A stretch of DNA of 64,000 bases from Auritidibacter ignavus (GTDB lineage Bacteria > Actinomycetota > Actinomycetes > Actinomycetales > Micrococcaceae): positions 124,001 through 188,000 of the forward strand of contig NZ_RDQR01000001.1 in assembly GCF_003703835.1 (NCBI RefSeq). The letters are read 5' to 3'. Below the pieces are notes generated by a model. That model did no database searches and was not told the origin of the DNA. It worked only from the letters and a program-made list of their open reading frames with translations. Positions 15,232 through 44,006 of this stretch are shown one piece after another. The position numbers were made by a program, and so were the translations under genes. The first letter of the stretch is position 1, and every line of letters starts with the position of its first letter.

Positions 15232-16764
15232 TTAGGTGACCGGGAAGGTGGCATCCTGTTCCTCAGCGAAACGCCGGATGCGAGCCAGGGTGGCGTCTTG
15301 ACCGAGAATCTCCAGCGACTCAAATAGCGGCGGTGATACCTTGCGCCCTGACACCGCACTGCGCACCGGGCCGAATGCTTGACGCGGTTTCAGCCCCAGC
15401 CCATCGATCAACGCCACGCGCAGAGCTGGTTCGATGGCCTCGGTGGTGAACTGCTCGGGGTCGATGGCCTCCAGGGCACGATAGGCGGCTTCCAGAGCGG
15501 AAGCCAGGTCTTCGGGCATGCCTTTCAGCGCCTGTTGTTCGGTTTCGATCTGGTCATCGTCCAGATAGAGGAAGGCCATCATCTCGGCAGCATCGGCCAG
15601 CAACTGGGTACGTTCTTGCACCAACGGTGCTGCCTGAGTGAGAATTTCCAGCTCGCGTTCGGTGGGGTTGTCTGCGATGAGTTGCTGGGCCTGCAGGTAC
15701 GGGATCATCCGATCGCGGAAGTCCTCGGGCTCCAGCATGCGGATGTGGGTGCCGTTGATGGCAATGGCTTTCTTCTCATCGAAGCGTGCCGGATTAGCCA
15801 ACACGTCGTGGATATCGAAGTGTTCGACGAACTGTTCGGGTGTGAAGATATCCTCATCGGCCGATAGCGACCAGCCCAGCAGGCCCAGGTAGTTCAGCAG
15901 ACCTTCGCGGATAAAACCGCGGTCCCGGTGCAGGAACACATTGGATTCTGGGTCGCGTTTGGACAGCTTTTTATTGCCGGTTCCCATCACATAGGGTAGG
16001 TGGCCGAAAACCGGCATGTGCGTGGCGACACCGATCTCGTACAGCGCCTGATACAGCGCAATCTGGCGTGGGGTGGAAGACAACAGGTCTTCCCCGCGCA
16101 ATACGTGGGTGATGCCCATCAGCGCATCATCGACCGGGTTGACCAGCGTGTATAGCGGGGAGCCGTCGGCACGTACCACGACGAAGTCCGGTACCGAACC
16201 GGCTTTGAAGCTGATCTCCCCACGGACCGCATCAGTGAAGCTGATGTCTTCATCCGGCATCTTCAACCGCAACACCGGCTCACGGCCTTCATCCCGGAAA
16301 GCCTGCTTTTGTGCTGCGGTAAGGTTCCGGTCGTAGTTGTCATAGCCCAATTGCGGGTCGCGACCGGCGGCTTGGTGACGGGCTTTGATTTCCTCAGCGT
16401 TCGAGAAGGACTCATAGACGTGCCCGGATTCCACCAGCTTGTTGATCACATCCTGGTAGATCTCGCCTCGCTGGGATTGACGGTAGGGCTCGTGCGGGCC
16501 GCCAACTTCCACGCCTTCGTCCCAGTCGATCCCCAGCCAGCGCATCGCGTCCAGCAGTTGTTGGTAGGACTCTTCGGAGTCACGCTTGGCGTCGGTGTCT
16601 TCGATGCGAAAGACCAGCGTGCCACCGGTGTGGCGGGCCCACCCCCAGTTGAACAGGGCGGTGCGGATCAAACCGACGTGTGGCGTTCCGGTCGGTGAAG
16701 GACAGAACCGCACGCGCACCGGGGTCGAAGCATCAACTGCAGGAATATCGTCAAAACTGGTCAT
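15232..16764 (-). CDS. gltX: Glutamate--tRNA ligase
   Basis: A 510-residue class I synthetase. [20 protein letters not shown] carries the HIGH-box equivalent (PHVG) near residue 25, and KKLSKRDP is the KMSKS-type loop near residue 265. [16 protein letters not shown]-like [11 protein letters not shown] and [14 protein letters not shown] are also typical. ATG 16764 is preferred because GGTGGAG precedes it; an in-frame GTG at 16773 is possible. In bacteria lacking glutaminyl-tRNA synthetase this enzyme would also misacylate tRNA-Gln for GatCAB; no glnS is visible in the window. The two tRNAs that use it lie directly downstream on the same strand. Confidence 0.95.
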
Positions 16765-29491: not shown

Positions 29492-29564
29492 GCGCCTCTA
29501 GCTCAACTGGTAGAGCACTTGACTCTTAATCAATAGGTTGTGGGTTCGAGTCCCACGGGGCGCA
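29492..29564 (+). tRNA. tRNA-Lys (anticodon CTT)
   Basis: A 73-base cloverleaf GCGCCTCTAGCTCAACTGGT... The acceptor GCGCCTC pairs with GGGGCGC with discriminator A; the anticodon loop ACTCTTAAT gives CTT; the T arm is GTGGG-TTCGAGT-CCCAC. CCA is not encoded. It marks the left edge of the sulfur-related region. Confidence 0.96.
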
Positions 29565-29572
29565 CTCTAAGT

Positions 29573-29608
29573 CGGCACCTCGTTTGGCCACACGTCAAAC
29601 AGGTGCCG
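29573..29608 (+). terminator. Terminator-like hairpin after tRNA-Lys
   Basis: CGGCACCT (29573-29580) pairs with AGGTGCCG (29601-29608), and inside it GTTTG pairs with CAAAC across a one-base bulge. It starts 9 bases after the tRNA. Only a short GTTGT follows, so the T-run is poor, but position and stability fit tRNA transcript termination. Confidence 0.6.
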
Positions 29609-30003
29609 TTGTCATATCCGGCGGACACGGCAAATCCACCGTCTACCCACAGCTTTAAAGCCACCAGGCCCGCCTCCACGCTGGGTTGTTTGTGCCTATT
29701 GACTGCCAGCTTCCGTGTGGCTCTGAGTCTCCGTCATGGTCTGGGCGCTGGTGCCCACCGACTTACTCCTCCTGCATCACGCCCGCGACAGGACCACGAT
29801 CTGATCCATCCGGTGCAATCGTTACCTCCCACCCTCTCGCTCTCTCGTCCCAGAGCAGGGTACCTCATGAGGCATCGACCACCATGTCCCGACGTGGCGC
29901 AACACCCTGGGTGGGAGCCACCTGTCGTACCGGCCCTCTCGCGACGGGCCGCCTGTTGAGCGTGGCCTGGTACGTGTAACACTGCGTCAAGGACACGAAA
30001 TAT
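29609..30003. other. Intergenic stretch without a convincing gene
   Basis: Open frames here on both strands (for example 29686-29979 plus and 29734-30126 minus) are rich in Cys, Trp, Arg and His, lack ribosome sites and resemble no family, so I read them as chance frames. No repeat, tRNA-end duplication or RNA family was recognised. It could hold decayed coding sequence left by insertion beside the tRNA. Confidence 0.4.
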
Positions 30004-30042
30004 ATGACAGGGGAAACCGTCGCGCCAGAGATGAACGGACGA

Positions 30043-30069
30043 ATGTGTCAGTGCTTTGACCTCGACTAG
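30043..30069 (+). other. Possible Cys-codon upstream ORF (MCQCFDLD)
   Basis: ATG TGT CAG TGC TTT GAC CTC GAC TAG, ending 79 bases before the flavin oxidoreductase at 30149. It is also in frame with ATGs at 30004 and 30031. Two cysteine codons so close together upstream of a sulfur-related gene recall the cysteine-responsive upstream ORFs of actinobacteria. No clear attenuator hairpin follows, so the role is speculative. Confidence 0.3.
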
Positions 30070-30148
30070 GTCCCAGCCTTCCCTATCTGAAGAATGGTTA
30101 ATCGTTCCTCTATCAACCAACGTCAATGGGAAAACGGGAAGTGATCTG

Positions 30149-31291
30149 ATGACAGTCCGGCTTAGCGCTTTCGATTTGGTACCGCTCTCTGAAGGGTATA
30201 CCCCTGCCGAAGGTATTGATCATGCTCGAGCCTTTGCTCGTGGCATTGAAGAAGCCGGCTATCACCGCTTGTGGTACGGGGAGCACCACCTGAACCCAGG
30301 GATGTTGGGCTACTCCCCTGCCCTGACCATCGCCTTGTTGGCCAGTGAAACCGGAACCTTGCGGTTTGGTTCCGGAACGGTTCTGACCGGTCACCGCACT
30401 CCTTTCTCGGTGGCAGAAGAATTCAGCCTGCTTGAAGCGGCCTTTCCGGGACGAATTGACCTCGGCTTGGGACGTGCCGGGTTGAAGGGCCCTAAAAAGA
30501 AGCGCACCGAGGCCGAAGCTGCCAAACAAGAGAAGAAAGATGAGGCTAAGCAGCAGTCAGACGACTACGAGACCGACAACGGCGTGTTTATCCCCGCTTC
30601 CCCCGATTTGTCTCACCTCTTTGGCTCACCGCGTGCTACCGCTCAGCAGGCCCTATTGCATCAGCCCGGCGCGGAGCCTCGCTTCTATGATGAGTACCTC
30701 GATCAATTACTGGATTTGTTCCATGACCGCGCCGTAGTACATGGCGAACCGATCTCGAATGCCACCGCGGATGTGGGTTCTCCGGAGATTTGGATTTTGG
30801 GTACCAACGCCGGTGACTCCTCGCAACTGGCCGCAGAAAAGGGACTACGGTTTGGTGCGAATTATCACGTAGCCCCCACCCATACTCTGGAAGCTCTGGC
30901 GGACTACCGCGAGCGCTTCCAACCCAGCGAAGACCTCGATGCCCCATACACCATCGTCTCCGCTGAAGTTTTGGTGGCCGATACCACCTCCGAGGCTGAC
31001 ACCTTGGCAGCTGGTTACGACCAGTGGGTCTACAGCATCCGTAGCGGTCAAGGCGCTATCACATATCCTTCACCCGATACCGCTGCACAAAACCAGCTCA
31101 CCGCCGAACAGCAACCCCTGGTCCGCGACCGGACGACGACCCGCTACGTGGGGGACCCGCACCAGGTGGTCGAGAAACTCAAGGCGCTACAGGCCGCTAC
31201 ACAAGCCGACGAATTGCTGATCTCGACCATTACCCACGACCCGGAAGCCCGCCTGCGTAGCTTCCAGCTGTTGGCTGAGGCCTGGCAATAG
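30149..31291 (+). CDS. LLM-class flavin-dependent oxidoreductase (MsnO8/LuxA-like)
   Basis: A 380-residue TIM-barrel monooxygenase of the bacterial luciferase-like family. GYHRLWYGEHHLNPGMLGYS and RFGSGTVLTGHRTPFSVAEE with FPGRIDLGLGRAG are the typical N-terminal half; IWILGTNAGDSSQLAAEKGL and FGANYHVAP the second. Family members oxidise small organic or organosulfur molecules using reduced flavin. Odd is a Lys/Glu-rich insertion (residues about 112-140, starting GPKKKRTEAEAAKQEKKDEA). ATG 30149 follows GGGAAG; an upstream in-frame ATG at 30056 is unlikely. It lies 76 bases before a SAM riboswitch and heads the sulfur cluster; substrate unknown. Confidence 0.85.
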   Translation: MTVRLSAFDLVPLSEGYTPAEGIDHARAFARGIEEAGYHRLWYGEHHLNPGMLGYSPALTIALLASETGTLRFGSGTVLTGHRTPFSVAEEFSLLEAAFPGRIDLGLGRAGLKGPKKKRTEAEAAKQEKKDEAKQQSDDYETDNGVFIPASPDLSHLFGSPRATAQQALLHQPGAEPRFYDEYLDQLLDLFHDRAVVHGEPISNATADVGSPEIWILGTNAGDSSQLAAEKGLRFGANYHVAPTHTLEALADYRERFQPSEDLDAPYTIVSAEVLVADTTSEADTLAAGYDQWVYSIRSGQGAITYPSPDTAAQNQLTAEQQPLVRDRTTTRYVGDPHQVVEKLKALQAATQADELLISTITHDPEARLRSFQLLAEAWQ

Positions 31292-31366
31292 CTTCCCCGT
31301 TGCCCTCCGGCTACCCCTGACCACCCATCCCAGCCCATCAACTACCCAACCACCACCGAGAATTTA

Positions 31367-31470
31367 TTGTCACGAGATCCGATTTCAAGCCCTGGCTGAT
31401 CGGACAGCAACCCTCTCTCTGGAGATCGACCACAATCTCTTACACAGTGGGGTGCTCCAGGTGAAGACAA
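31367..31470 (+). ncRNA. SAM-binding riboswitch (SAM-IV / SAM-I-IV type)
   Basis: The stretch contains the SAM aptamer core in order: TTGTCACGAG at the 5' side, CAAGCCCTGGCTGATCGGAC, AGCAACCCT, then GTGGGGTGCTCCAGGTGAAG and GACAA closing P1 with the initial TTGTC. These match the actinobacterial SAM-IV/SAM-I-IV consensus as I know it. It lies 32 bases before the start of the second flavin monooxygenase. No terminator with a T-run lies between aptamer and gene, so control is probably at translation, by hiding the AAGGAG site. It should shut the operon when SAM is abundant. Confidence 0.85.
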
Positions 31471-31502
31471 GGCCCATTCGGCAAGTGTGTTTAAGGAGAA
31501 TC

Positions 31503-32660
31503 ATGTCACGTGCCACACCCGAAACCTCCCACTTCGTCATCGGAGTTGCGCTGGATCGAGGGGGTTTCCACCCCGCAGCCATCCGGAGCCAGCAGGCTCT
31601 TGCCGATAACTTCTCCATCACAGCGTGGGAAGACCTCGTGCGTCAGGCTGAGAACCTGGGGGCCGGATTCGTGACCCTCGAGGATGCGTTCAATGACGCC
31701 ACCCGCCCGGGATTCGATACGTCGTTGCTGGCCTCGTGGTTGGCGCCCCGCACCGAGAAGATCGGCCTGATCCCGACGCTGACCACCACCCATACCGAGC
31801 CCTTCCACGTCTCGAAAAATCTTGCCACGCTTGACTATGTCAGTCACGGTCGCGCTGGCTGGCAGGTTGCAGTCTCAGCCACCGAAGCCGAAACGCTGCT
31901 AGTGGGACGAGGACGCGCCTACGACGATGAGGCCTCGCTTTATGCTGAAGCCCGCGACGTCATCGAGGTCGTGCGCGGTCTGTGGGATTCGTGGGAAGAC
32001 GACGCCGAGATTCGCGATGTAGCCACCGGACGATTCATCGACCGCGACAAGCTCCACTACGTGGACTTCGAAGGAGACTTCTTCTCCATCAAAGGCCCCT
32101 CTATCGTTCCCCGGCCACCGCAAGGCCAGCCACTGGTCACCATTGCAGGTACCAGCGAAGAGGTGCTGAACACTGCAGTGCGCGCTGCCGACGTGATCTT
32201 CACCGGCACCTCGGCCCCGGAGAAGTTGACCTCACTCCACGAAAGGATTACAACGCTGTCCGACCAGCACGGTCGTGACAAGAACGCGCCGCCGAAGGTC
32301 GTGGCCGATGTGTACTTTGCGGTTGATCCAGACGAGTCAGAGGCGCTCGCACGCTGGCAACGCCTCAACGAGGTCCAGACCCTTAATCCTTCTCAGGCCG
32401 ATGAGGTCGTCATCGGTACTCCAGAGCACCTCAGTGAACGCCTCGACCAGGTCAAGGCCGCCGGGGTTGATGGCGTCCGGCTTTGGCCTGCCCAGAACCA
32501 GCACGACCTTGCTGTGATCGAGCAGCACCTGAAATCTGTCGTGGAGACACTCCAAGATCACCCAGCCGATAACAATGCCGCTCCATTGCGGGCCCGGTTC
32601 GGACTTGGTCGTCCCGCAAACCGGTACGCCTCAGCTTCCTCGTCCGCTTCCGCTCACTAA
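31503..32660 (+). CDS. LLM-class flavin-dependent monooxygenase (NtaA/SnaA/DszA-related)
   Basis: A 385-residue luciferase-like protein. ALADNFSITAWEDLVRQAEN, FVTLEDAFNDATRPGFDTSL, IGLIPTLTTTHTEPFHVSKN and ATLDYVSHGRAGWQVAVSAT are hallmark stretches; the last resembles the FMN-binding segment of the NtaA/SnaA/DszA group. A Ser/Ala-rich tail closes the protein. ATG 31503 follows a strong AAGGAG. It is the first gene downstream of the SAM riboswitch and 19 bases from the next monooxygenase. These enzymes need reduced FMN from a separate reductase, which is not encoded in the cluster. Probably acts on an organosulfur compound. Confidence 0.87.
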   Translation: MSRATPETSHFVIGVALDRGGFHPAAIRSQQALADNFSITAWEDLVRQAENLGAGFVTLEDAFNDATRPGFDTSLLASWLAPRTEKIGLIPTLTTTHTEPFHVSKNLATLDYVSHGRAGWQVAVSATEAETLLVGRGRAYDDEASLYAEARDVIEVVRGLWDSWEDDAEIRDVATGRFIDRDKLHYVDFEGDFFSIKGPSIVPRPPQGQPLVTIAGTSEEVLNTAVRAADVIFTGTSAPEKLTSLHERITTLSDQHGRDKNAPPKVVADVYFAVDPDESEALARWQRLNEVQTLNPSQADEVVIGTPEHLSERLDQVKAAGVDGVRLWPAQNQHDLAVIEQHLKSVVETLQDHPADNNAAPLRARFGLGRPANRYASASSSASAH

Positions 32661-32679: not shown

Positions 32680-34053
32680 ATGACGAATCAGCAGAATCAC
32701 TCTTCCCCTCGCCAGATCATCCTTGGGGCACACTTCCCCGGGGTGAATCATCACACCGTGTGGTCCGATCCGGAGTCTGGAAGCCACATTGAGTTCGAGT
32801 CTTTTGAGAAGTTCGCCGCCGAAGCCGAGCGTGGTCGCCTGGACTTCATTTTCTTGGCCGAAGGGCTCCGACTGCGCGAAAACCGGGGTCTGATCCACGA
32901 CCTGGATGTCGTTGGTCGCCCCGACACGTTGCCGATCTTGGCAGCCTTGGCCTCGGTGACCGACCACATTGGACTGGTCGGGACTATTAACGCCACCTTC
33001 AATGAGCCCTATGAGGTGGCTCGGCAATTTTCAACCTTGGACTATGTCTCCAACGGGCGAGCTGGTTGGAATATTGTCACCACCTCCGATTCCTTCCACG
33101 GCGCCAACTTCCGTCGTGGCGGTTACCTCGACCGGGCGGACCGCTATGTGCGGGCTTCTCAGGCTCTGGATGTTGCCAATCGTTTCTGGGCAAGCTGGAA
33201 AGATGTCGAGTCCGAGCGGGAACGTGTGAACGTCACCAACGATCAGTTCGATATTCACGGCGAGTTCCCGCTCCCCCGTTCCCCTCAGGGGCGTCCGTTG
33301 ATCTTCCAGGCCGGAAAATCCGCTCAGGGTCAAGACTTCGCGGCCGGTAACGCCGATGCTATTTTCACTTTGCACACTGATAACGAAGACAGCCGACAGT
33401 TCTACCATGAACTCTCCGAGCGGGTGCGACAGGCCGGCCGTGATCCCGAATCTGTCAAGATCCTGCCGGGTACTTCCGTTGTTGTGGCAGATACCGATGA
33501 AGAAGCAGAAGAACTGGCTGCGACGATTCGGGCTCAGCAGGTCAGCGGTCAGACCGCCATCCTGTTGCTGGAACAGATTTGGAACCGAGAGCTTTCAGAG
33601 TTCGATCCCGAGGGCCCACTTCCTGATGTGGACCCGGTGGTCGGTGAAACCACCATCAGTAAGGGTCGCAGTGAGGTCAGGCATGACGACCGGTTCGCGG
33701 CCGTGCAGAAGCTGCGGGACATCGCTGAGGCGCGCAATCTGAACCTGCGCGAAACAGTGATTGCCACCCAGTCGCGGCAGACCTTCGTCGGAAGCCCTGA
33801 AACCGTGGCGTCCGAAATGATTGAGACTGTGGAAACCCATGTCAGCGACGGATTCATTCTGGCACCACATCTGAGCCCGACCGGACTCGTGCCTTTCATC
33901 GACCGCGTTGTTCCGTTACTCCAAGAGCGGGGTGCTCTACGCACCGAATACCCCGAGGGCGCAACGTTACGTGAATTGCTCGGTCTGCCCACAACGTGGG
34001 ATCCGGCCACGACCGGCCGGGCAACTTTCCGGCAGGGGGTGAACGTCTCATGA
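32680..34053 (+). CDS. NtaA/SnaA/DszA-family FMN-dependent monooxygenase
   Basis: A 457-residue monooxygenase. GAHFPGVNHHTVWSDPESG, RGRLDFIFLAEGLRLRE, GLVGTINATFNEPYEVARQF and DYVSNGRAGWNIVTTSDSFH are strongly characteristic of the family that includes DszA (sulfone cleavage), NtaA (nitrilotriacetate) and sulfonate-ester monooxygenases such as those of Corynebacterium seu. RRGGYLDRADRYVRASQAL and IFQAGKSAQGQDFAA follow. ATG 32680 is preceded by CAGGAGA. Its stop overlaps the start of the lipoprotein gene as ATGA. It is the best candidate for C-S or S-O bond cleavage in the pathway. Confidence 0.9.
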   Translation: MTNQQNHSSPRQIILGAHFPGVNHHTVWSDPESGSHIEFESFEKFAAEAERGRLDFIFLAEGLRLRENRGLIHDLDVVGRPDTLPILAALASVTDHIGLVGTINATFNEPYEVARQFSTLDYVSNGRAGWNIVTTSDSFHGANFRRGGYLDRADRYVRASQALDVANRFWASWKDVESERERVNVTNDQFDIHGEFPLPRSPQGRPLIFQAGKSAQGQDFAAGNADAIFTLHTDNEDSRQFYHELSERVRQAGRDPESVKILPGTSVVVADTDEEAEELAATIRAQQVSGQTAILLLEQIWNRELSEFDPEGPLPDVDPVVGETTISKGRSEVRHDDRFAAVQKLRDIAEARNLNLRETVIATQSRQTFVGSPETVASEMIETVETHVSDGFILAPHLSPTGLVPFIDRVVPLLQERGALRTEYPEGATLRELLGLPTTWDPATTGRATFRQGVNVS

Positions 34054-35684
34054 AGCATCGTCACGCACGGTCCTCACGCCATGGCGTCCGCTCGCTAGCC
34101 CTTGTTGCAACGGCCCTATTTGCCTTCACTGGTTGCAGCAGTGGAACTGGCCTGGAATTTTCCCCCGCCGCGGAGGTGGACGAGGAGAACGTTTTACACT
34201 TTGCACTCGGAACAGATGCGGGTTGCGTTGATCCCCAACAAGTGACGCTGAACGACGCCGTCTTTTCGCTCCGTCATTTGGTGGATTCGCTCACCGACCA
34301 AGATCCTGAAACCGGTGAAATCGTCCCCTGGCTAGCTACTGACTGGGATGTTAACGACGATACGACCGAGTTCAGATTCACGCTACGGTCCGACGCGACC
34401 TTCTCTAATGGGGAACCAGTCAATGCTGAAGCCGTCAAGGCAAATTTTGAACGAATCCTCGAGTTGGGCGCACGTGGTGGACTGACAAGGAGTTACCTGG
34501 ACTACTACGAGGACACCGAGATCATCAGCGACCACGAATTTGTGGTGAAGTTCTCCGAACCGAACGCCCAATTTATGCAAGCCACATCCACCCACAACCT
34601 GGGTCTAATAGCTCCAGAATCACTAGAGAAATCGGATGACGAGCGGTGCGAAGGCGTCATCGGATCTGGACCCTTTCTCTTGGATTCGTACGTACCAAAC
34701 GAGGGCATAAACCTCGTGGCCCGCCAAGACTATGACTGGGGGTCCTCAATCTATGACAACCGCTCGGCTCCAAAAGTGTCCGCTGCTAGTTTCTCCATCG
34801 TTCCGGAGTCCGGGGTGAGGGCCGGTCTGCTCCAATCAGGACAGGTCGACGCTATCAGCAGTGTAGCTCCACAGGATATTCCGGCACTGGAACAGACCAC
34901 TGCCACTCTCCACACGGTTGTCAATCCTGGGGTGCCGATGACCATTCGCATGAACCACGACAACCCCTTGATACAGGAACATGCTGTGCGTAAAGCGATT
35001 TCTCTGGCAATCAACCGCAAACAGTTAGCCGAAGTGGTCTATCCTGATGACGCTCCTGTTGCCACCAGTATCCTCGCTTCAACTACCCCGGGGCACGCAG
35101 ACTTCTCTGAAGAATTGCGATACGACCCAGATGAAGCCATTGAGTTGCTTACTGACGCTGGATTCAGCCCTGATGAAGACGGTGTTATGGCCCGGGATGG
35201 CGAGCGTCTCGAGTTCGATTTCACCTGGGCCATGGTGTTCGCACCTAACTCAGCGGCAGTCGAATTGCTACAACAGCAACTTGCGGAAGTCGGTATTGCC
35301 ACCGAGCTACATGAAGACGCAATTGCTCAGTGGAATGCGAGAGTGATCGAAGGAAATTACGATATCGACTGGTTCAATACAACCCGCGCTGATGGTGACC
35401 ACCTACGGACCATATTCGACTCTAGGCTAGGCAATATTTCTAACCTGCCTGAAAACTATCACACTGATGAAGCCTTGGCGCTTCAGTCCACCACGCTAGA
35501 TCCCGACGTACGCGAAGAAGCGCTTTATCAAGCGCAAAAAGCACTCGTCGAAGATTACACCGCCGTTCCAATTATTGATGTGACCAATGTGGTTGGTACC
35601 TCCGACGAAGTATCAGGAACGCGGTTCGATGCCGCAGCAAGAGTCCGTCTCAACGACATCACTCTAAATCGAGGTGAGGAATGA
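34050..35684 (+). CDS. ABC transporter substrate-binding lipoprotein (family 5)
   Basis: A 544-residue extracellular binding protein of the peptide/nickel (SBP_bac_5) family. A basic N-terminus, hydrophobic helix and lipobox FAFTGC with the lipidated cysteine at residue 29 show a membrane-anchored lipoprotein. WLATDWDVNDDTTEFRFTLR and DATFSNGEPVNAEAVKANFE are the family signature region; AVRKAISLAINRKQLAEVVY and EAIELLTDAGFSPDEDGVM follow. Translationally coupled to genes on both sides. Codon use here looks somewhat more AT-rich than in the flanking housekeeping genes. The ligand is likely an organosulfur molecule, inferred only from neighbours. Confidence 0.92.
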   Translation: MKHRHARSSRHGVRSLALVATALFAFTGCSSGTGLEFSPAAEVDEENVLHFALGTDAGCVDPQQVTLNDAVFSLRHLVDSLTDQDPETGEIVPWLATDWDVNDDTTEFRFTLRSDATFSNGEPVNAEAVKANFERILELGARGGLTRSYLDYYEDTEIISDHEFVVKFSEPNAQFMQATSTHNLGLIAPESLEKSDDERCEGVIGSGPFLLDSYVPNEGINLVARQDYDWGSSIYDNRSAPKVSAASFSIVPESGVRAGLLQSGQVDAISSVAPQDIPALEQTTATLHTVVNPGVPMTIRMNHDNPLIQEHAVRKAISLAINRKQLAEVVYPDDAPVATSILASTTPGHADFSEELRYDPDEAIELLTDAGFSPDEDGVMARDGERLEFDFTWAMVFAPNSAAVELLQQQLAEVGIATELHEDAIAQWNARVIEGNYDIDWFNTTRADGDHLRTIFDSRLGNISNLPENYHTDEALALQSTTLDPDVREEALYQAQKALVEDYTAVPIIDVTNVVGTSDEVSGTRFDAAARVRLNDITLNRGEE

Positions 35685-36631
35685 TGGCCCGATATATCGG
35701 TATTCGAGTCCTCATGGCCCTGGCTGTGTTATGGGCCGCATATACCGTTAGTTTTATCATTCTCTATATCGTTCCCGGCGATCCTGTACTGGCCATGGCC
35801 GCCGGGGGAATGGATAGTGGTGGCGTAGATGAAGAACTTCTCCAAGAGATGCGCGAAGCTTATGGGTTCAATGACCCGTTGATCGTCCAGTACTTCAATA
35901 ATCTTGGTGCAGCCATAACGGGTGATTTTGGGAACTCCATTCAGACCGGGCGTCCCGTTAGCACAGCGATCGCTGAAGTTATACCGGCCACTGCACAGTT
36001 GGCAGGCGTCGCTTTGTTGCTTGCTGTGGTATTGGGGGCAGCTATTGCCTTGCTGGCCACCTACACCAGAATCACATGGTTGAAGAACCTCTTGCTGTCG
36101 TTGCCTCCTCTGGCCATCTCACTGCCCACCTTCTTCATTGGTTTGCTACTCATCCAGGTTTTCAGCTTCCAGTTGGGTTGGCTACCTGCGTTGGGTGGCT
36201 CCGACTTCGCAGGGATTGTCCTTCCTGCGGTGACCTTGTCGCTTCCCATCGGAGCGCTGATCTGCCAGGTCTTTGCATCCAGCCTGGAAAGAAGCTCGGC
36301 AGAGTCCTACGTCAATACAGCGCGGGCAAAGGGGCTCAACCGGTTTACCGTGCACCTGCGCCATGTGGCCCGAACCTCGCTGGTCCCGGCCCTATCGATG
36401 GTGGGACTGGTCGCCGGCGGTTTACTAGCCGGGTCAGTCATCGTTGAAACGGTGTTCTCACGTCCCGGTGTCGGACAGCTGACGGTTCAAGCTGTTTCCA
36501 CTCAGGATCTTCCGGTGGTTCAAGGCATTGTCGTCTTAGCAGCTGTCGTCTTTGTCACCGTGAATCTGCTGGTGGACCTGGTGTTGCCAGCGATCGATCC
36601 TCGAGTACGACTTGGCCGTCGTTTCGCCTAA
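35681..36631 (+). CDS. ABC transporter permease (DppB/OppB type)
   Basis: A 316-residue integral membrane permease. The first helix (MALAVLWAAYTVSFIILYIV) is followed by PGDPVLAMAAGG, the extracytoplasmic YGFNDPLIVQYFNNLGAAIT with GDFGNSI, and the EAA loop YVNTARAKGLNRFTVHLRHV that contacts the ATPase. About six transmembrane segments are visible, as in DppB. The start overlaps the binding-protein stop (ATGA); tandem ATGs at 35681 and 35684. Confidence 0.94.
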   Translation: MMARYIGIRVLMALAVLWAAYTVSFIILYIVPGDPVLAMAAGGMDSGGVDEELLQEMREAYGFNDPLIVQYFNNLGAAITGDFGNSIQTGRPVSTAIAEVIPATAQLAGVALLLAVVLGAAIALLATYTRITWLKNLLLSLPPLAISLPTFFIGLLLIQVFSFQLGWLPALGGSDFAGIVLPAVTLSLPIGALICQVFASSLERSSAESYVNTARAKGLNRFTVHLRHVARTSLVPALSMVGLVAGGLLAGSVIVETVFSRPGVGQLTVQAVSTQDLPVVQGIVVLAAVVFVTVNLLVDLVLPAIDPRVRLGRRFA

Positions 36632-36649: not shown

Positions 36650-37549
36650 ATGACTCAAACACTCTCTGCTCGACTGCCCCGATCGTCCGCAGAACCTACC
36701 ATCGCACAACGATCTCAACACAACCGACCACCACAATTCTCGCCAAAATCCATCACGTCTCGAATCGGGCTGATCCTGGCCGGTGTGTTCTTGGCCCTCG
36801 TGGTGATCGCTGCCTTTTTCCCCGGGGTCCTGGCTCCCGGTGATCCTTACCAAGGTGATACCAATAACGTGCTACAGTCGCCCAGCCTGGCCCATTGGTT
36901 CGGTACCGATCAACTCGGCCGAGATTTGTTTACCCGCGTAGTCCACGGTACTTCACTGTCACTGCAGACCGCCCTGATGGCCGTTGTCATCGCCTTCGTG
37001 AGCGGAAGCTTCTTCGGAGTGCTCTCTGGATTCCTGGCAGGTAAAGTCGACCAGGTCATCATGCGCGTTGTGGATGTCCTTTTGGCGATTCCTTCGTTGC
37101 TCCTCTCACTCGCGTTGATTTCCGCACTCGGTTTCGGCTCGTTGAATGTTGCCATTGCTGTCGCTGTGGGGTCCGTGGCAACCTTTGCTCGCATCGCACG
37201 GTCCGAGAGCCTCAAAGTCTCGGGTGCAGACTATGTTGATGCGGCCCGTTCCGTGGGCTCCAGTCGATTCAGCATCCTGGTGCGGCACGTGTTGCCCAAT
37301 GCTTCCGGACCTATCATCGCGCTGGCCGTATTGGAATTTGGCAACGCCATCCTGGCGGTCTCCGCCTTGAGCTTCCTGGGCTTCGGTGCTCCCAAGCCGG
37401 CACCTGAATGGGGAGCCCTGGTCTCTGAGGGCCGCAACTATCTCTACAGTGCTAGCTGGTTGACGCTACTACCGGGCCTGGTGGTAGCTGCTACTGTGCT
37501 CTCCGTCCACGTCATTGCCCGCCGGATTTCCGCGCGAAAGGGGGTTTGA
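36650..37549 (+). CDS. ABC transporter permease (DppC/OppC type)
   Basis: A 299-residue permease pairing with the preceding one. A hydrophilic N-terminal tail is followed by a first helix (IGLILAGVFLALVVIAAFFP), HWFGTDQLGRDLFTRVVHGT, the family-typical segment, then helices and the EAA loop YVDAARSVGSSRFSILVRHV. SFLGFGAPKPAPEWGALVSEG near the end is a strong DppC signature. It starts 18 bases after the DppB-type gene. Confidence 0.94.
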   Translation: MTQTLSARLPRSSAEPTIAQRSQHNRPPQFSPKSITSRIGLILAGVFLALVVIAAFFPGVLAPGDPYQGDTNNVLQSPSLAHWFGTDQLGRDLFTRVVHGTSLSLQTALMAVVIAFVSGSFFGVLSGFLAGKVDQVIMRVVDVLLAIPSLLLSLALISALGFGSLNVAIAVAVGSVATFARIARSESLKVSGADYVDAARSVGSSRFSILVRHVLPNASGPIIALAVLEFGNAILAVSALSFLGFGAPKPAPEWGALVSEGRNYLYSASWLTLLPGLVVAATVLSVHVIARRISARKGV

Positions 37550-37554
37550 TTCCC

Positions 37555-39228
37555 ATGACCGTTCTGCTTGAAAATGCCTCGTCGAGCGCCCCGAAGCCAA
37601 CGACACCGTTGCTTCAGTTGGAAGGACTGAAAGTCGATTATCGATCCGGGTCCTCCACCACACCGGCCCTACACGGCATCGATTTTGCTGTCTACCCCGG
37701 ACAGAGAATCTCCGTGGTAGGCGAGTCCGGGTCCGGCAAGTCCACCTTGGCTCTGTCCCTGCTCGGGTTGCTCCCGCCGGAAGCCTCCATTCGTGACGGC
37801 AAACTCTCCTGGGGCGATACCCCCGTCGCGCTGAGCTCTGATCGAGCCTGGCAACGACTCCGTGGTCAAAAGATCGGATTGATCCCTCAGGATCCCGGTG
37901 TCAGCCTCAACCCGGTCTACACCATTGGCCATCAACTCATTGAGGCCATTCGCGCCCACCAGAAGGTGCCGAAGGCTCTTGCCCGTCAACGCGCTCTGGA
38001 GTTGCTCGACCAGGTAGGGCTCGATGCGGTAGAGACCCGTTTTGACCAGTACCCACATCAACTCTCGGGTGGTATGCGTCAACGCGTCCTCATTGCTATT
38101 GCCTTGGCTCCCGAGCCGGATCTGCTCATCGCGGATGAGCCCACCTCCGCTCTGGATGCCACGGTGCAGCGCAAGATCTTGGACCTGCTGGATTCCATCA
38201 TCAGTGAGCGAGACATCGCCTTGGTGCTCATCACCCACGATTTGGCAGTCGCTGCGCAACGCACCGAGACCACCGTGGTGATGCACCACGGAAACGTGGT
38301 GGAAATCGGAGACACCGGAACCATCCTCAATACCCCCACGCACAGCTACACCCAGCGTCTGGTGGCTGCGGCTGATTCATTACACCGCTCGACACATATC
38401 CGTCCGCCACTGGACGTCGAAACCGAAGTCCTGGTCCAGGTCCGCGGACTGAAACGCCATTTCGCCCAGCCAAAGGCCACGTCACGGCGCCGTGACGCCT
38501 CAACATTGCGCACCAACGCCGTTGACGGCATTGATTTCGTGATCCGGCGCGGTGAGACACTGGCACTCGTGGGTGAATCGGGGTCCGGTAAATCTACCAC
38601 CGCACGATTGGTACTCGGTTTGGATACTCCGACCGAGGGAACCGTGACCTTCGACGGTGAGCCCGTCCATAACCTGTCGGGACGTCGTTGGCGACAGTTG
38701 CGTCGCCGGGCGCAGTTGATCTACCAGAATCCGTTTGCGTCATTGAACCCTCGCTGGAGCCTGGAGCAGATCATCACCGAGCCCCTGCGCGCTTTCAAAG
38801 TCGGCAACCGCGCCGAGCGTCGTGCCACGGCCGAGACACTGCTCGACCAAGTCGGGTTACCCGCCACGTTTGGGTCCAGATTGCCCAGGGAGCTGTCTGG
38901 CGGTCAGCGTCAACGCGTCGCGATTGCACGGGCCTTGGCCTTATCCCCCGACTTTGTGGTCTGCGATGAGCCGGTCTCAGCCCTGGATGTTTCGGTCCAG
39001 GAACAGGTGTTGGACCTGATGTTGGATCTGCAAGCCGAACACGAATTGACCTATTTGTTCATCACCCATGACCTGGCTGTCGTACGCCGACTAGCACACC
39101 GCGTCGCGGTGATGAACCAGGGCAAAATTGTCGAGACCGGCACCACCCAAGAGGTGTTTGCTAACCCGCAAGAAGAATACACCGCCTCGTTGCTCAAGGC
39201 TGTTGAACCTCTTGGGGCAGGACACTAG
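37555..39228 (+). CDS. Fused double ABC ATPase (DppD-DppF type)
   Basis: A 557-residue protein with two complete ABC ATPase domains, energising the peptide-type importer from the cytosolic side. Domain 1 has Walker A GESGSGKSTLALSLLG, signature LSGGMRQRVLIAIAL and Walker B DLLIADEPTSALDAT. Domain 2 repeats GESGSGKSTTARLVLG, LSGGQRQRVAIARAL and VVCDEPVSALDVSV. The C-terminal oligopeptide-transporter tail is weak in the first half (HSYTQRLVAA). ATG 37555 chosen; an in-frame TTG at 37546 overlaps the permease stop. It completes the five-gene riboswitch-controlled operon after the two monooxygenases. Confidence 0.94.
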   Translation: MTVLLENASSSAPKPTTPLLQLEGLKVDYRSGSSTTPALHGIDFAVYPGQRISVVGESGSGKSTLALSLLGLLPPEASIRDGKLSWGDTPVALSSDRAWQRLRGQKIGLIPQDPGVSLNPVYTIGHQLIEAIRAHQKVPKALARQRALELLDQVGLDAVETRFDQYPHQLSGGMRQRVLIAIALAPEPDLLIADEPTSALDATVQRKILDLLDSIISERDIALVLITHDLAVAAQRTETTVVMHHGNVVEIGDTGTILNTPTHSYTQRLVAAADSLHRSTHIRPPLDVETEVLVQVRGLKRHFAQPKATSRRRDASTLRTNAVDGIDFVIRRGETLALVGESGSGKSTTARLVLGLDTPTEGTVTFDGEPVHNLSGRRWRQLRRRAQLIYQNPFASLNPRWSLEQIITEPLRAFKVGNRAERRATAETLLDQVGLPATFGSRLPRELSGGQRQRVAIARALALSPDFVVCDEPVSALDVSVQEQVLDLMLDLQAEHELTYLFITHDLAVVRRLAHRVAVMNQGKIVETGTTQEVFANPQEEYTASLLKAVEPLGAGH

Positions 39229-39262: not shown

Positions 39263-39318
39263 AAGACCTCCGGCCACCACGATGCGGATCTCAGATTCCG
39301 TTAGTCACCGGAGGTCTT
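39263..39318 (+). terminator. Terminator-like hairpin after the ABC operon
   Basis: AAGACCTCCGG (39263-39273) pairs perfectly with CCGGAGGTCTT (39308-39318) around a 34-base loop, 34 bases beyond the ATPase stop. The T-run is weak on both strands. As it lies between convergent units it may serve both. Confidence 0.5.
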
Positions 39319-39610: not shown

Positions 39611-40909
39611 TCAGCAGACCGAGTCGGTCGGTTTCGGATTATCCATCCCGAACAGCGCGCGGGCTTTCAACCCGGCCCAGGTACCCGCCAACGCGGCCAC
39701 GGCCCACAGCCAACCCGACACGGATCCCGAGGCAATGCCACCTAAGTAGGCGCCGATATTGCACCCTTCGGCAAGACGGGCGCCGATCCCCATCAGGATG
39801 CCGCCAAGAACAGCGATGCCTGCTTGCCTCCAGTTGATATTGCGGGCAAACGCCCAGGTCCCGGCCGCCGTAGCAGCAAGGGCTGCCCCGATCATGATGC
39901 CAAAGTTTGTCAGTGAGTTCTTGTGGGAAAGCACTGAACCCTCCAGCATGGCGGCCCAGTTTTCTTGTTGCCAGAATTCCCACGTTTCGGGCTGGAAACC
40001 AATGAACTGTAGAACCTTGGCGCCCCACAGAGCGAAGGCATTGGTAATGCCCCAAATTCCGCCAGAGACCCACATCACGGCCCCGCCGAGCACCGCGAGC
40101 ACCAGTGCTCCAACCCACATCGGCCATGAGCCTCGTAGTATTCGAGCAGCACCACGTGCTGTCGGAGGGTTTCCGGTTGGAGGTGGGTTGCGACGGCCCT
40201 GGACAACGCGCGTGATCGCCACAATAACAAGTAGCACCGCAATGGTGATCGCCCAGCCTCCCACATAGCCGACATGGTCTGAGAGCAATACCGGTTCCAT
40301 ACCGGGAAGGTCAGAGACCAACGGGTAGAAAAATGGGGCGGTATAGATGATGGAACCAGCGATAAAGCCAATCAGCGTGGGGATCACCATCGATTGTCCG
40401 GAGCCCACGGCAAAAAGTGTTCCCGAGGCGCAACCACCGCCCAATTGCATCCCCATGCCGAAAATAAAGGCACCTAGGAGAAGCCCTACCCCGATCGTCC
40501 CGGCATAGGGCGTCGGTTCGTTGCCGAAGGCTCCCCACCCGGTGGTAAAGAGCAACATAAAGATTGTTGCAGTTGTCCCGAGTAAGAGAGCGTGATTTCG
40601 AAGTCCTTTACCATTGCCGACAGCTACCAGCTGTCGCCAGGCGGAGGTAAAACCGAACCGGGAGTGAAATAGCGCTACGCCGAGTCCGAGGCCAATGAGA
40701 AAGAGCACGCCGAAGTAGAGCCCCTGCTCTATGCCGGCGTTGAGGGAGTTGACATTGTAGATCAGGGCCAACAACCCGATGGCCAATAGAATGAAGATGC
40801 TGATCTTGTTACGTTGTACCGGACCAACCGGATCAGGCTTCGGAGGTTCTACTCGAGTCGGCGCCGGTTCGAAGACTGAGAATTCTGTTTTTGTCTTGCT
40901 AGTTGTCAT
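39611..40909 (-). CDS. YeeE/YedE family permease (thiosulfate transporter TsuA-like)
   Basis: A 432-residue polytopic membrane protein. The two repeats characteristic of the family each carry a conserved cysteine motif: MQLGGGCASGTLFAVGSGQ (Cys160) and LAEGCNIGAYLGGIASGS (Cys383). Family members pass thiosulfate or related sulfur species across the membrane through these cysteines. There are roughly ten hydrophobic segments. A TusA-like (YeeD/TsuB) partner is not adjacent. It faces the ABC operon convergently and precedes metB/metY on the same strand, consistent with sulfur supply. The start at ATG 40909 has a weak ribosome site. Confidence 0.85.
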   Translation of the reverse strand: MTTSKTKTEFSVFEPAPTRVEPPKPDPVGPVQRNKISIFILLAIGLLALIYNVNSLNAGIEQGLYFGVLFLIGLGLGVALFHSRFGFTSAWRQLVAVGNGKGLRNHALLLGTTATIFMLLFTTGWGAFGNEPTPYAGTIGVGLLLGAFIFGMGMQLGGGCASGTLFAVGSGQSMVIPTLIGFIAGSIIYTAPFFYPLVSDLPGMEPVLLSDHVGYVGGWAITIAVLLVIVAITRVVQGRRNPPPTGNPPTARGAARILRGSWPMWVGALVLAVLGGAVMWVSGGIWGITNAFALWGAKVLQFIGFQPETWEFWQQENWAAMLEGSVLSHKNSLTNFGIMIGAALAATAAGTWAFARNINWRQAGIAVLGGILMGIGARLAEGCNIGAYLGGIASGSVSGWLWAVAALAGTWAGLKARALFGMDNPKPTDSVC

Positions 40910-41108
40910 TGCTCAACAGACCCTTCGGAACAGACGTCACCAGCAAACGCTGGGCAGAGACATTAGTTGGACCAGGCTAACGCCGATCACGTTGTTAACA
41001 TCAGCTGTCTGTCATAAAGGGTCATCACCCGGTCACGAACATTAACACGGAACTTTCTCCCCAGAACCGCTGGCGCGCCCGTGTTTCGCGAAGTGTGCCC
41101 AGCAACGG

Positions 41109-41142
41109 CTCGGGCCCGTCGCAAGCTTGCGAGGGGCCCGAG
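41109..41142 (-). terminator. GC-rich hairpin downstream of metB
   Basis: CTCGGGCCC (41109-41117) and GGGCCCGAG (41134-41142) form a 9-base-pair stem; the loop itself contains the palindrome TCGCAAGCTTGCGA. It starts 41 bases after the metB stop, so likely ends the metY-metB transcript although no T-run follows. Confidence 0.55.
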
Positions 41143-41182
41143 CTGTTACTGGTGAGCTTGGTCTGTGCTCTGTGGGATCCAA

Positions 41183-42394
41183 CTAGCTGCGCAGAGCGCG
41201 CTCAAGATCGATCAGCAGGTCCTCGATGTTTTCGATGCCCACGGACAGCCGCACCACATCAGCGGGCGGAGCTTGTTCGCTGCCCTTGGTGGAACCGTGT
41301 GTCATGGTGGCAGGATGAGAGATGAGCGACTCGACGCCACCGAGGCTGACCGATAACAGGAACGTTTCGGTGGATTCGGCCACCTGACGCGCTTTGGCCT
41401 CTCCCCCGTTTAATCGGAAGCTCACAATCCCCCCGGAATCACTCATTTGTCGACGAGCGATGTCGTAAGTGGGGTGGGAAGACAATCCGGGGTAGAAAAC
41501 CTGGTCGACCTCGGACCGATCCTGGAGCCATTCCGCGATGATTCGTGCATTTTCACAGTGTTGTTGCATCCGCACGCCCAGAGTTTTCAACCCACGAGAG
41601 GTGAGGAAACAGTCCTGGGGGCCTGCCACAGCACCGGCAGCGAATTGCTGGAAGCCGATGACCTCGGCTAGTGGTTTGTCTTCCCAGCTCGTCTGGCCAA
41701 CCACAATGGCGCCACCCAAAACGTCTGAATGGCCGCCAATGTATTTGGTGGTTGAGTGAATCACCAGATCCGCACCGAGAGTGATCGGCTGTTGTAGTGC
41801 CGGTGATGCGAAAGTGTTATCCACTACGAGCAGTCCGCCATATTGATGCGTTGCTTCTGCCCAGGCAGAGATATCAACCACGGTCAGCAACGGGTTGGAG
41901 GGCGTTTCCAACCAGACCACGTCAGGACGGTATGTTTCCACCGCCTGAGCGAGCTTGTCTTGCTCGCTGGGACTCACGAAGACGGTATTAACTCCCCACC
42001 GAGCGTAGAGCTGGGTGAGCAGTCGGTGTGTACCACCGTAGGTTTCGGCCGTGCTGACAACGGTTGCACCAGGTTTCAGCACCGCCCGCAACAGAGCATC
42101 TTCAGCAGCCATGCCCGAGGCAAAACTAAACGCTGCAGCACCGGCCTCGAGCTTGGCCAGCTGTTCTTCGAGACCGGTCCGTGTGGGATTACCGCCGCGG
42201 GAATATTCAAAGCCAGCGCGTAGTGTTTCCACACCGGGTTGCACAAACGTCGAGGTTTGATAGATCGGTGGAATCACCGCTCCGGTCAGTGGATCCGGGT
42301 CTTGACCAGCATGGATGGCTCGGGTTCGGAACCCCGGGGTGGGATTTTCGTTTTTCTTGCTCGGGATGTTGTGGTGAAGATCAAGAGTTGTCAT
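41183..42394 (-). CDS. metB: Cystathionine gamma-synthase / trans-sulfuration PLP enzyme
   Basis: A 403-residue Cys/Met-metabolism PLP enzyme. GFRTRAIHAGQDPDPLTGAV, PPIYQTSTFVQ, YSRGGNPTRTGLEEQLAKLE, VDNTFASPALQQPITLGADL and the PLP-lysine stretch VIHSTTKYIGGHSDVLGG are diagnostic, with SLGGVESLISHPATMTH at the end. This pattern fits cystathionine gamma-synthase, though gamma-lyases look alike, so the direction of trans-sulfuration is not certain. Its ATG overlaps the preceding gene's stop (ATGA). It is co-regulated by the upstream SAM riboswitch, which supports a role in methionine synthesis. Confidence 0.85.
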   Translation of the reverse strand: MTTLDLHHNIPSKKNENPTPGFRTRAIHAGQDPDPLTGAVIPPIYQTSTFVQPGVETLRAGFEYSRGGNPTRTGLEEQLAKLEAGAAAFSFASGMAAEDALLRAVLKPGATVVSTAETYGGTHRLLTQLYARWGVNTVFVSPSEQDKLAQAVETYRPDVVWLETPSNPLLTVVDISAWAEATHQYGGLLVVDNTFASPALQQPITLGADLVIHSTTKYIGGHSDVLGGAIVVGQTSWEDKPLAEVIGFQQFAAGAVAGPQDCFLTSRGLKTLGVRMQQHCENARIIAEWLQDRSEVDQVFYPGLSSHPTYDIARRQMSDSGGIVSFRLNGGEAKARQVAESTETFLLSVSLGGVESLISHPATMTHGSTKGSEQAPPADVVRLSVGIENIEDLLIDLERALRS

Positions 42395-43845
42395 GACAGT
42401 GCCGCCTTTGCTGATTCTTCTGCCTTAGTGGTGTTTGCATCTGCCCAGACCTGTTCGGACGCGGGCTGATTTGCTTGAACAAGCTGGTCCAGCCCTTGTT
42501 TGACGTCGTGCCACAAATCGTCGACATCTTCGCGTCCAACTGCCAGTCGCACGGTGGTCTCGTTGATCTGTCCAGCGATGCGAAGCTCCTCCGAAAGGCG
42601 ACAGTGGGTCGTGGTCAGCGGGTGGGTGATCAAGGAGCGAGAGTCGCCAAGATTGACCGCCAGGGTAAACAGCTGCAGTGAATTGAAAAACCGCTCAACA
42701 CCGGCAGAATCGGTATTCAATTCGAAAGAGAATACCGCTCCCGTCCCCCGCGTGAAGTCTCGTTCCGCAATGTCTTTATTCGGGTGAGATTCCAGCGAGG
42801 GGTGGCTCACCGAACGCACACCGGGGTGCTGTTCCAGTCGACGAGCGAGTTCCGTAGCGGTCTGGCTGTGGCGGGGCAACCGCAGGTCGAGCGTTTCAAT
42901 ACCCTCCAAAGCCTGCTGGGCGTTCAACGCCGATAGCACCGGTCCCACGTCGTTGAGCAACTGTGCTCGAAGCAGATGCAGCACAGAGCCTGCCTCCCCG
43001 TATTTCTCCACCAAGGACTGAGGACCAAAACGAGGGCGTGGTGTGGTCAGCTGTGGCCATAGCTCTGGACGTTGTGAGGGATGGAAATTGTCCGTGACAA
43101 TGACCGCTCCTCCGAGAGAGGAACCGTTTCCGACCAAGTATTTGGTCACCGAGTGCACCACGAGGTCAGCACCCAGACGAGCAGGTTGGAGCAAATACGG
43201 TGTCGCCAGGGTATTGTCGACAATCAGTGCCACCCCGTGCCGGTGAGCAACTTCTGCCAAGGCCGGGATATCCGGCAGGTCTGCGTGTGGGTTGGCAATG
43301 GATTCGACCACAAAGACCCGCGTGCGTTCGGTGATCGCTTCCTCCCACTGCTGGGGATCGTGCGGATTGACCCAGGTGGTGGTGATCCCGGCTTCCGCCA
43401 GGCTGTCGTTGAGCAAGTCAGCGGTGCCACCATAGATACGGTTTGAAGCCACCACGTGGCCGGCCGGAGCCTCCGGATGGGGTTGACCGTCTGGGCTTTG
43501 CGAGGACCGTCCTGCCAGGGCCAGCACACTCAGCGTGATGGCGGCCTGGCCCGACGCGGTGGCGACCGCCCCGACTCCGTCTTCCAGGCTGGCAAGTCGC
43601 CGTTCCAGCAATCCAACCGTGGGATTTCCAGTTCTGGAATAGGTCAGTCCAGGTTGACGTTGGGCGAAGACTTCACGGGCTTGGGCGAAAGAATCGAATC
43701 CGAAGGCAGCTGAAACATAGACTGGTTCGCGTACAGGACGAATGGATTCATCCGGGATACGGCCCGCGTGAATTTGTTGGGTACTAAACCCGGATTGACA
43801 TGGGCCCTCAGAGTCTTCGGCAGAAAAGTGACTGGTAGTAGACAT
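42391..43845 (-). CDS. O-acetylhomoserine (thiol)-lyase-like PLP enzyme
   Basis: A 484-residue member of the same PLP family but of the longer sulfhydrylase type. FSTQQIHAGRIPDESIRPVR, YSRTGNPTVGLLERRLASLE, VESIANPHADLPDIPALAEV, IVDNTLATPYLLQPARLGAD and the PLP-lysine segment VVHSVTKYLVGNGSSLGGAV match O-acetylhomoserine sulfhydrylase (MetY), which makes homocysteine directly from sulfide. Start set at ATG 43845 behind AAGGGGG; the frame extends upstream into the riboswitch leader and is not coding there. The 3' end has a charged tail. Sulfide released by thiosulfate or organosulfur use could be fixed here. Confidence 0.85.
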   Translation of the reverse strand: MSTTSHFSAEDSEGPCQSGFSTQQIHAGRIPDESIRPVREPVYVSAAFGFDSFAQAREVFAQRQPGLTYSRTGNPTVGLLERRLASLEDGVGAVATASGQAAITLSVLALAGRSSQSPDGQPHPEAPAGHVVASNRIYGGTADLLNDSLAEAGITTTWVNPHDPQQWEEAITERTRVFVVESIANPHADLPDIPALAEVAHRHGVALIVDNTLATPYLLQPARLGADLVVHSVTKYLVGNGSSLGGAVIVTDNFHPSQRPELWPQLTTPRPRFGPQSLVEKYGEAGSVLHLLRAQLLNDVGPVLSALNAQQALEGIETLDLRLPRHSQTATELARRLEQHPGVRSVSHPSLESHPNKDIAERDFTRGTGAVFSFELNTDSAGVERFFNSLQLFTLAVNLGDSRSLITHPLTTTHCRLSEELRIAGQINETTVRLAVGREDVDDLWHDVKQGLDQLVQANQPASEQVWADANTTKAEESAKAALS

Positions 43846-43920
43846 AACGTCCCCCTTGATACTAGGGCGTGTCTGCCAGTGCTGGGCACGCCGTGCTTGC
43901 CTCCAGCGGTGTGCTGAAGA

Positions 43921-44006
43921 CCGGATCATCATCTGAGGCACCCCGTCACAGCGGAAAGGGTTGCCGACCGGCCAGTCAGAGCTTGTTGAACCGGTTCTCG
44001 TGATCC
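43921..44006 (-). ncRNA. SAM-binding riboswitch upstream of metY-metB
   Basis: Read on the minus strand: GGATCACGAG at 44006, then AAGCTCTGACTGGCCGGTCG, GCAACCCTTTCCGC, GTGACGGGGTGCCTCAGATG, and GATGATCC closing the first stem. This is the SAM-I/IV-type core (P1 GGATCA with TGATCC, conserved GCAACCCT and GGGGTGCC). It leaves 75 bases before ATG 43845, with no clear intrinsic terminator, so translational control is likely. TAGAAT at 44018-44023 is a candidate -10 element a few bases upstream. Confidence 0.85.

Follow-up and report, generated by a model that had tools for sequence, protein, structure and literature searches.

In Bacillus, the operon for S-alkylcysteine salvage contains an importer, carries an N-acetyltransferase and a deacetylase, and is under protein control by CymR; one of its enzymes, CmoJ, we take to be YtnJ. 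CmoO and CmoJ dealkylate S-alkylcysteine in two flavin-dependent steps, within a salvage route to which N-acetyltransferase and deacetylase steps also belong, as described in PMC10863075. A protein regulator likewise governs the McbR regulon of C. glutamicum, which is reported to include metY and the FMNH2-dependent sulphonate monooxygenase gene ssuD1 (PMC2580772). Described targets of SAM-IV riboswitches include, in M. avium, an O-acetylhomoserine sulfhydrylase (PMC3774663) and, in S. clavuligerus, a class-V PLP enzyme (PMC8269248). Here we analyze a 64,000-nucleotide stretch of the Auritidibacter ignavus genome (the window), in which a SAM-IV element stands before an operon for FMN monooxygenases and an ABC importer. 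We consider it quite probable, from comparison of sequences, that this element is an ordinary SAM-IV OFF switch and that the operon, predicted to import organosulfur compounds and cleave their C-S bonds, is turned off at high SAM.

The element lies downstream of gene 1 (30149-31291, +), which encodes an MsnO8-family luciferase-like monooxygenase (TIGR03558, 276.6 bits, cut-off 166.95), and precedes gene 2 (31503-32660, +), encoding an NtaA/DmoA-like luciferase-like FMN monooxygenase (PF00296, 140.6 bits) that scores 213.2 bits with TIGR03860, under the cut-off of 279.7. Gene 3 (32680-34053, +) encodes an FMN monooxygenase of the NtaA/DmoA family, above that cut-off at 349.2 bits. The importer comprises a family-5 solute-binding protein of peptide/nickel type (gene 4, 34050-35684, +; PF00496, 253.5 bits; TIGR04028, 297.4 bits, under the cut-off of 468.5), two ABC permeases of OppB/NikB type (gene 5, 35681-36631, +; PF00528, PF19300) and OppC/NikC type (gene 6, 36650-37549, +; PF00528, 105.9 bits), and a double ABC ATPase (gene 7, 37555-39228, +; PF00005 in two stretches). 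Genes 2-7 are co-directional with successive gaps of 19, -4, -4, 18, and 5 nt, in keeping with the first-pass annotation, which had described a monooxygenase gene followed by five tightly spaced or overlapping genes. Profile annotation of genes 1-7 shows neither an acetyltransferase nor a deacetylase, and no flavin reductase gene lies within the operon. Among solved proteins, gene 3 comes nearest to B. subtilis YtnJ/MoxC (about 249 bits), followed by a nitrilotriacetate-type protein (227), 7e36 chain B (208), DszA (184), and DmoA (162 bits). In PDB 7e36, gene 2 matches chain A and gene 3 chain B, each with a weaker cross-match to the other chain, which hints that their products might form a heteromer. 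The six-gene operon probably imports and oxidizes a sulfur-containing compound, judging from these families and from the regulatory context described below.

The Rfam covariance model RF00634 (SAM-IV) matches positions 31368-31493 (+) with 74.4 bits, the gathering threshold being 38, and the match spans model positions 1-116 (E 2.3e-11 in the 64 kb window; 7.3e-13 when only the 2 kb at 29560-31560 were scanned). This significant match was the sole family at E <= 1 in a permissive scan of 29560-31560, in which overlapping matches of the same clan were collapsed to the best one; the scan returned no other Rfam element before gene 1. Our own covariance model, R1, was built from 25 other SAM-IV elements, among them the remaining three of the same genome, with the window element left out; it scores the window element at 81.2 bits. 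R1 gave zero matches across 0.53 Mb in 33 related loci and is therefore not a promiscuous pattern. The SAM-I/IV class is described as having an undivided P2, no PK-1, and a P4 (PMC6890682), and the window element, in which PK-1 is present, falls outside it. In the Rfam alignment a P5 hairpin follows P1 and P4 is missing, the SAM-IV arrangement. The element is thus confirmed, by covariance-model comparison, as a genuine SAM-IV aptamer. The class named in the first-pass annotation agrees with this score, all the motifs it cited are found in the sequence, and its count of 32 bases between 31470 and the ATG at 31503 is correct; its aptamer end at 31470 falls too early, since the P5 hairpin and the 3' strand of PK-2 occupy about 31472-31490, and the structured part extends to about 31490.

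P1 pairs 31368-31371 with 31466-31469, as placed by the Rfam alignment and checked by letter. In PK-1, the P2 loop (CCUGG, 31391-31395) pairs with the strand following P3 (CCAGG, 31457-31461), the location that defines SAM-IV, with letters checked and covariation in our alignment A3. In PK-2, the P3 loop (ACACA, 31442-31446) forms five Watson-Crick pairs with the 3' tail (UGUGU, 31486-31490) in the same register as in relatives; we paired this strand by hand because A3 misaligns the window row there. A3 holds 45 rows from the window, its relatives, and other SAM-IV loci, counting one weak element (L068:2675-2806, 44.6 bits). Across it, 95.8% of cells are paired for the structure including both pseudoknots, and 32 of its 40 pairs show two-sided changes, measures reached by 0 of 500 shuffles, and slid versions of the structure drop to 34-47% paired. 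For PK-1, 99.5% of cells are paired and four of the five pairs show two-sided changes, with gaps in 5 of the 45 rows; for PK-2, 90.8% of cells are paired, counting only rows with letters. The PK-1 columns are gapped in three Streptomyces elements (L094 9220-9365, L110 5075-5219, and L111 8765-8910 (-)) because their P2 region is enlarged. PK-2 is of CGCG/CGCG-like type at most met genes and richer in A-U at the compact elements before gene 2, as with ACACA/UGUGU.

The Shine-Dalgarno sequence AAGGAGA (31493-31499, +) begins 2 nt beyond the PK-2 strand, which stops at 31490, and the gene 2 ATG follows at 31503. This spacing gives a concrete basis to the ribosome-site sequestration suggested in the first-pass annotation, which is probable, and the absence of an intrinsic terminator noted there also holds: we found 0 terminator-like sites in 31200-31600 (shuffle mean 0.3), nor a promoter-like site on the + strand of the same interval. 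Translational control is favored by the lack of a terminator-like site, and masking of the ribosome site by PK-2 is the likeliest mode for the window, as read from its sequence. Compactness is shared by some relatives. By a rough start-codon rule, 17 nt separate CAAG from the start in the window, and L067, L068, and L148, whose compact leaders likewise stand before gene 2, have 20-22 nt; among the 27 further elements that have a candidate start, the distance is 44-211 nt in 23 and 20-32 nt in four, a tally that leaves out seven Streptomyces rows (L143, L136, L146, L141, L090, L117, and L121) whose PK-2 was read from A3. The compact leader is not general at gene 2, as the same distance is 44 nt in L152, and about 280-300 nt lie between the aptamer and the gene 2 start in L069 and L094. 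Action on transcription through early termination, possibly Rho-dependent, we regard as unlikely, although a premature transcription unit in S. clavuligerus is predicted to contain a SAM-IV riboswitch (PMC8269248): besides the empty terminator search, the 2 nt between PK-2 and the Shine-Dalgarno sequence leave scant space for a separate platform.

To place the arrangement among relatives, two sets of loci were compiled: the best 80 named loci with a gene-2 homologue, scanned with R1, and 53 places outside the own genome from a search of 295 Micrococcaceae genomes, all of which were examined. The sets overlap in N. alkaliphila, where L068 and L147 are the same contig; GTDB places Nesterenkonia in Micrococcaceae, and the family name rests on G252 being the N. 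alkaliphila contig. The gene-2 frames of L010 and L011 contain an in-frame stop and were left out of alignment A1. Genes 2 and 3 are same-strand neighbors in 80/80 of the best 80 named loci, with gene 3 downstream within 600 nt in 69 and just upstream in 11; in the 53 Micrococcaceae loci gene 3 is downstream in 45 and upstream in six, and in the other two both queries match one single gene. A same-strand SAM-IV element stands upstream of the gene-2 homologue in 12 of the best 80 named loci (two Nesterenkonia, one Ornithinimicrobium, nine Streptomyces) and in 4 of the 53 family loci. It was not found in the upstream DNA examined of the remaining 68 named loci, some of which end near the gene so that upstream DNA is incomplete there, or of 49 family loci; in L110 and L111, which belong to the 68, the only SAM-IV lies on the opposite strand. 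In eight of the nine Streptomyces an ABC ATPase gene intervenes and the element is 3.4-4.2 kb upstream, and the only importer typed among these Streptomyces, that of L143, belongs to family 3. The binding protein and both permeases were matched in 19 loci of 18 genomes, with SAM-IV in six genomes and absent from 12, and one Micrococcaceae locus (L149) has the whole operon without SAM-IV. Predicted SAM control of the operon is thus recurrent yet lineage-specific, because most gene-2 loci and 12 of the 18 importer genomes are without the element.

SAM-IV also precedes a gene-1 homologue in L069 and L151. In Ornithinimicrobium L069 two SAM-IV elements stand back to back in divergent orientation (9412-9525, -, and 9607-9721, +), one before gene 1 and the other before genes 2 and 3. 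An FMN reductase gene adjoins the monooxygenases in L069 and L143. We considered whether loci without SAM-IV use another class of SAM riboswitch and rejected this for the seven of 117 such loci (six named, one family) in which an Rfam scan over 14-21 kb returned no SAM family; of the rest, some were scanned with Rfam for about 1.5 kb on each side and the others with R1 only. One gene-2 locus, L072 of Compostimonas suwonensis, holds a Guanidine-III riboswitch (15851-15915), and two loci with a gene-2 relative lie on viral contigs.

The genome has four SAM-IV elements in total, whose targets are metY (L001), a metY-like gene with a cystathionine gamma-synthase gene, the monooxygenase/importer operon, and a PF01613 flavin reductase gene (L004). 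The second element of the window (43888-44005, -; RF00634, 80.8 bits) precedes an O-acetylhomoserine sulfhydrylase-like, or metY-like, gene (42391-43845, -; TIGR01326, 409.4 bits, below the cut-off of 495.1), a cystathionine gamma-synthase gene that overlaps it (41183-42394, -; NF005871, 553.3 bits, cut-off 513) and, after a further 273 nt, a possibly co-transcribed gene for a YeeE/YedE-type sulfur transport protein (39611-40909, -; PF04143, 212.5 bits). This gene set (39611-44005, -) converges on the first, and the interval from 30 to 44 kb therefore reads as a sulfur island. Between the two convergent sets, at 39263-39318, a perfect 11-bp inverted repeat (AAGACCTCCGG/CCGGAGGTCTT) was seen by eye and is possibly a shared terminator. 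Ten of 22 proteins encoded behind SAM-IV elements were tested; Cys/Met PLP enzymes account for seven and MetX for one, in line with the first-pass statement that SAM-IV usually precedes methionine genes, and the remaining two are a class-V aminotransferase and a flavin reductase. At least one SAM-IV element is present in each of 294 of the 295 family genomes.

The flavin reductase is a stand-alone PF01613 protein encoded on contig C9 of the same genome (G000), with SAM-IV directly upstream; the genome has three further flavin reductase candidates. A homologue was matched in 133 of the 295 family genomes. SAM-IV lies upstream in 30/30 of the best loci, the own genome included (L227-L256), and in 11 of 20 further loci picked down the ranking (L265-L275), the nine without it (L276-L284) being the lowest-ranked of the 20. 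This amounts to 41 of the 50 loci examined with SAM-IV directly upstream. Three genomes (G217, G252, and G136) carry the SAM-IV operon, but the best-matching reductase examined in each is without SAM-IV, so the pairing of operon and reductase elements is not universal. We found no paper linking a SAM riboswitch with a flavin reductase in the open-licence literature searched.

We infer the following mechanism, including SAM binding, the OFF direction, the translational mode, the substrate, and the reductase partnership. Binding of SAM would stabilize P1 and both pseudoknots, and the 3' strand of PK-2 (31486-31490), then held 2 nt from the Shine-Dalgarno sequence, would block ribosome entry at gene 2; the block would spread to the remainder of the operon through its close or overlapping genes. 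At low SAM the leader would open, and the importer would take up an organosulfur compound whose C-S bond the paired FMN monooxygenases would cleave using reduced flavin, perhaps supplied by the flavin reductase whose gene, elsewhere in the genome, has its own SAM-IV leader. Sulfur freed in this way could enter homocysteine and methionine synthesis via MetY and cystathionine gamma-synthase, both likewise encoded behind SAM-IV. The purpose would most likely be to scavenge sulfur only when SAM is low. More broadly, and tentatively, there may be an actinobacterial SAM-IV regulon in which near-always-paired monooxygenases, an importer, and a flavin reductase acting in trans, with its conserved SAM-IV leader, are coordinated by RNA as a two-component oxygenase system for oxidative organosulfur scavenging.

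That SAM control is informative about physiology, as the first-pass annotation held in calling it a strong clue to the product, stands; with gene 3 nearest to YtnJ/MoxC, the clue points more to a sulfur-supplying substrate than to a product. A substrate unrelated to sulfur supply, such as a chelator or xenobiotic, with SAM control tied to methyl-group status or arising from an aptamer captured by chance, would suit the nitrilotriacetate-, EDTA-, and alkane-type enzymes among the solved relatives and the absence of SAM-IV from most gene-2 loci. We nevertheless judge it decidedly unlikely, as SAM-IV is linked to the monooxygenases in several genera with differing operon arrangement, the same genome places SAM-IV on met genes and a flavin reductase gene, and the convergent neighbor is a methionine/sulfur gene set.

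The P3 loop carries an insertion (31413-31441, +) of 27 bases against four in the Rfam consensus. Were this insert the expression platform, its UCUCUU would pair with the Shine-Dalgarno sequence or with an SD-like GGAGAU within the loop, and an 11-bp bulged duplex between loop and tail is indeed feasible at -10.5 kcal/mol. Direct pairing of insert and Shine-Dalgarno sequence is striking by eye, but we rejected it: 437 of 2000 dinucleotide-shuffled inserts pair equally well or better, and a local 6-bp hairpin (31421-31426/31435-31440, -4.8 kcal/mol) competes, which makes an insert platform very improbable. That the aptamer is a decayed or chance structure without function is scarcely credible: P5 is unusually short (3-4 bp, one non-standard pair flagged), the P3 loop is inflated, and an unconstrained fold of the leader, in which pseudoknots are not representable, fails to return the aptamer and leaves the Shine-Dalgarno sequence partly paired, yet nothing is lost from the core letters, P1, PK-1, or PK-2, which keep the family register, and the same position recurs among relatives.

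If a SAM-IV OFF switch does govern this operon, SAM-IV control extends beyond methionine synthesis to the acquisition of organic sulfur, and uncharacterized monooxygenase/importer operons of several actinobacterial genera gain a testable function. The flavin reductase link predicts which reductase serves the sulfur-scavenging oxygenases, and the compact leader, with PK-2 beside the Shine-Dalgarno sequence, may offer a simple model of SAM-IV action at a ribosome-binding site. The open-licence literature searched yielded no such SAM-IV target, which does not prove its absence from print.

Set against the described systems, the window element shares the core, P1-P2-P3, P5, PK-1, and PK-2 of the SAM-IV riboswitch as given in a cryo-EM description (PMC6890682), and differs from the Rfam family in its 27-nt P3 loop (consensus four), its P5 of 3-4 bp, a Shine-Dalgarno sequence 2 nt past PK-2, and its target, the importer/monooxygenase operon. 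With the B. subtilis CmoO/CmoJ salvage system the locus has in common that luciferase-like monooxygenases of two kinds adjoin an importer. Gene 3 is nearest to YtnJ/MoxC, ahead of a nitrilotriacetate-type protein and DszA, and the family of gene 1 (TIGR03558) has a candidate member in B. subtilis as well. The Streptomyces operon at L143, with its family-3 binding protein and FMN reductase, also invites this comparison. The window differs from that system in its family-5 importer, in having neither acetyltransferase nor deacetylase among genes 1-7, and in its predicted control by RNA. The McbR regulon offers the parallel of one global sulfur regulator over metY and an FMN monooxygenase, although C. 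glutamicum uses a protein repressor and SsuD where the window has a riboswitch and another monooxygenase. Because sulfur control of organosulfur monooxygenases through protein regulators and the chemistry of CmoO/CmoJ are already known, what the finding adds is a new and physiologically sensible target for a riboswitch class that is itself known.
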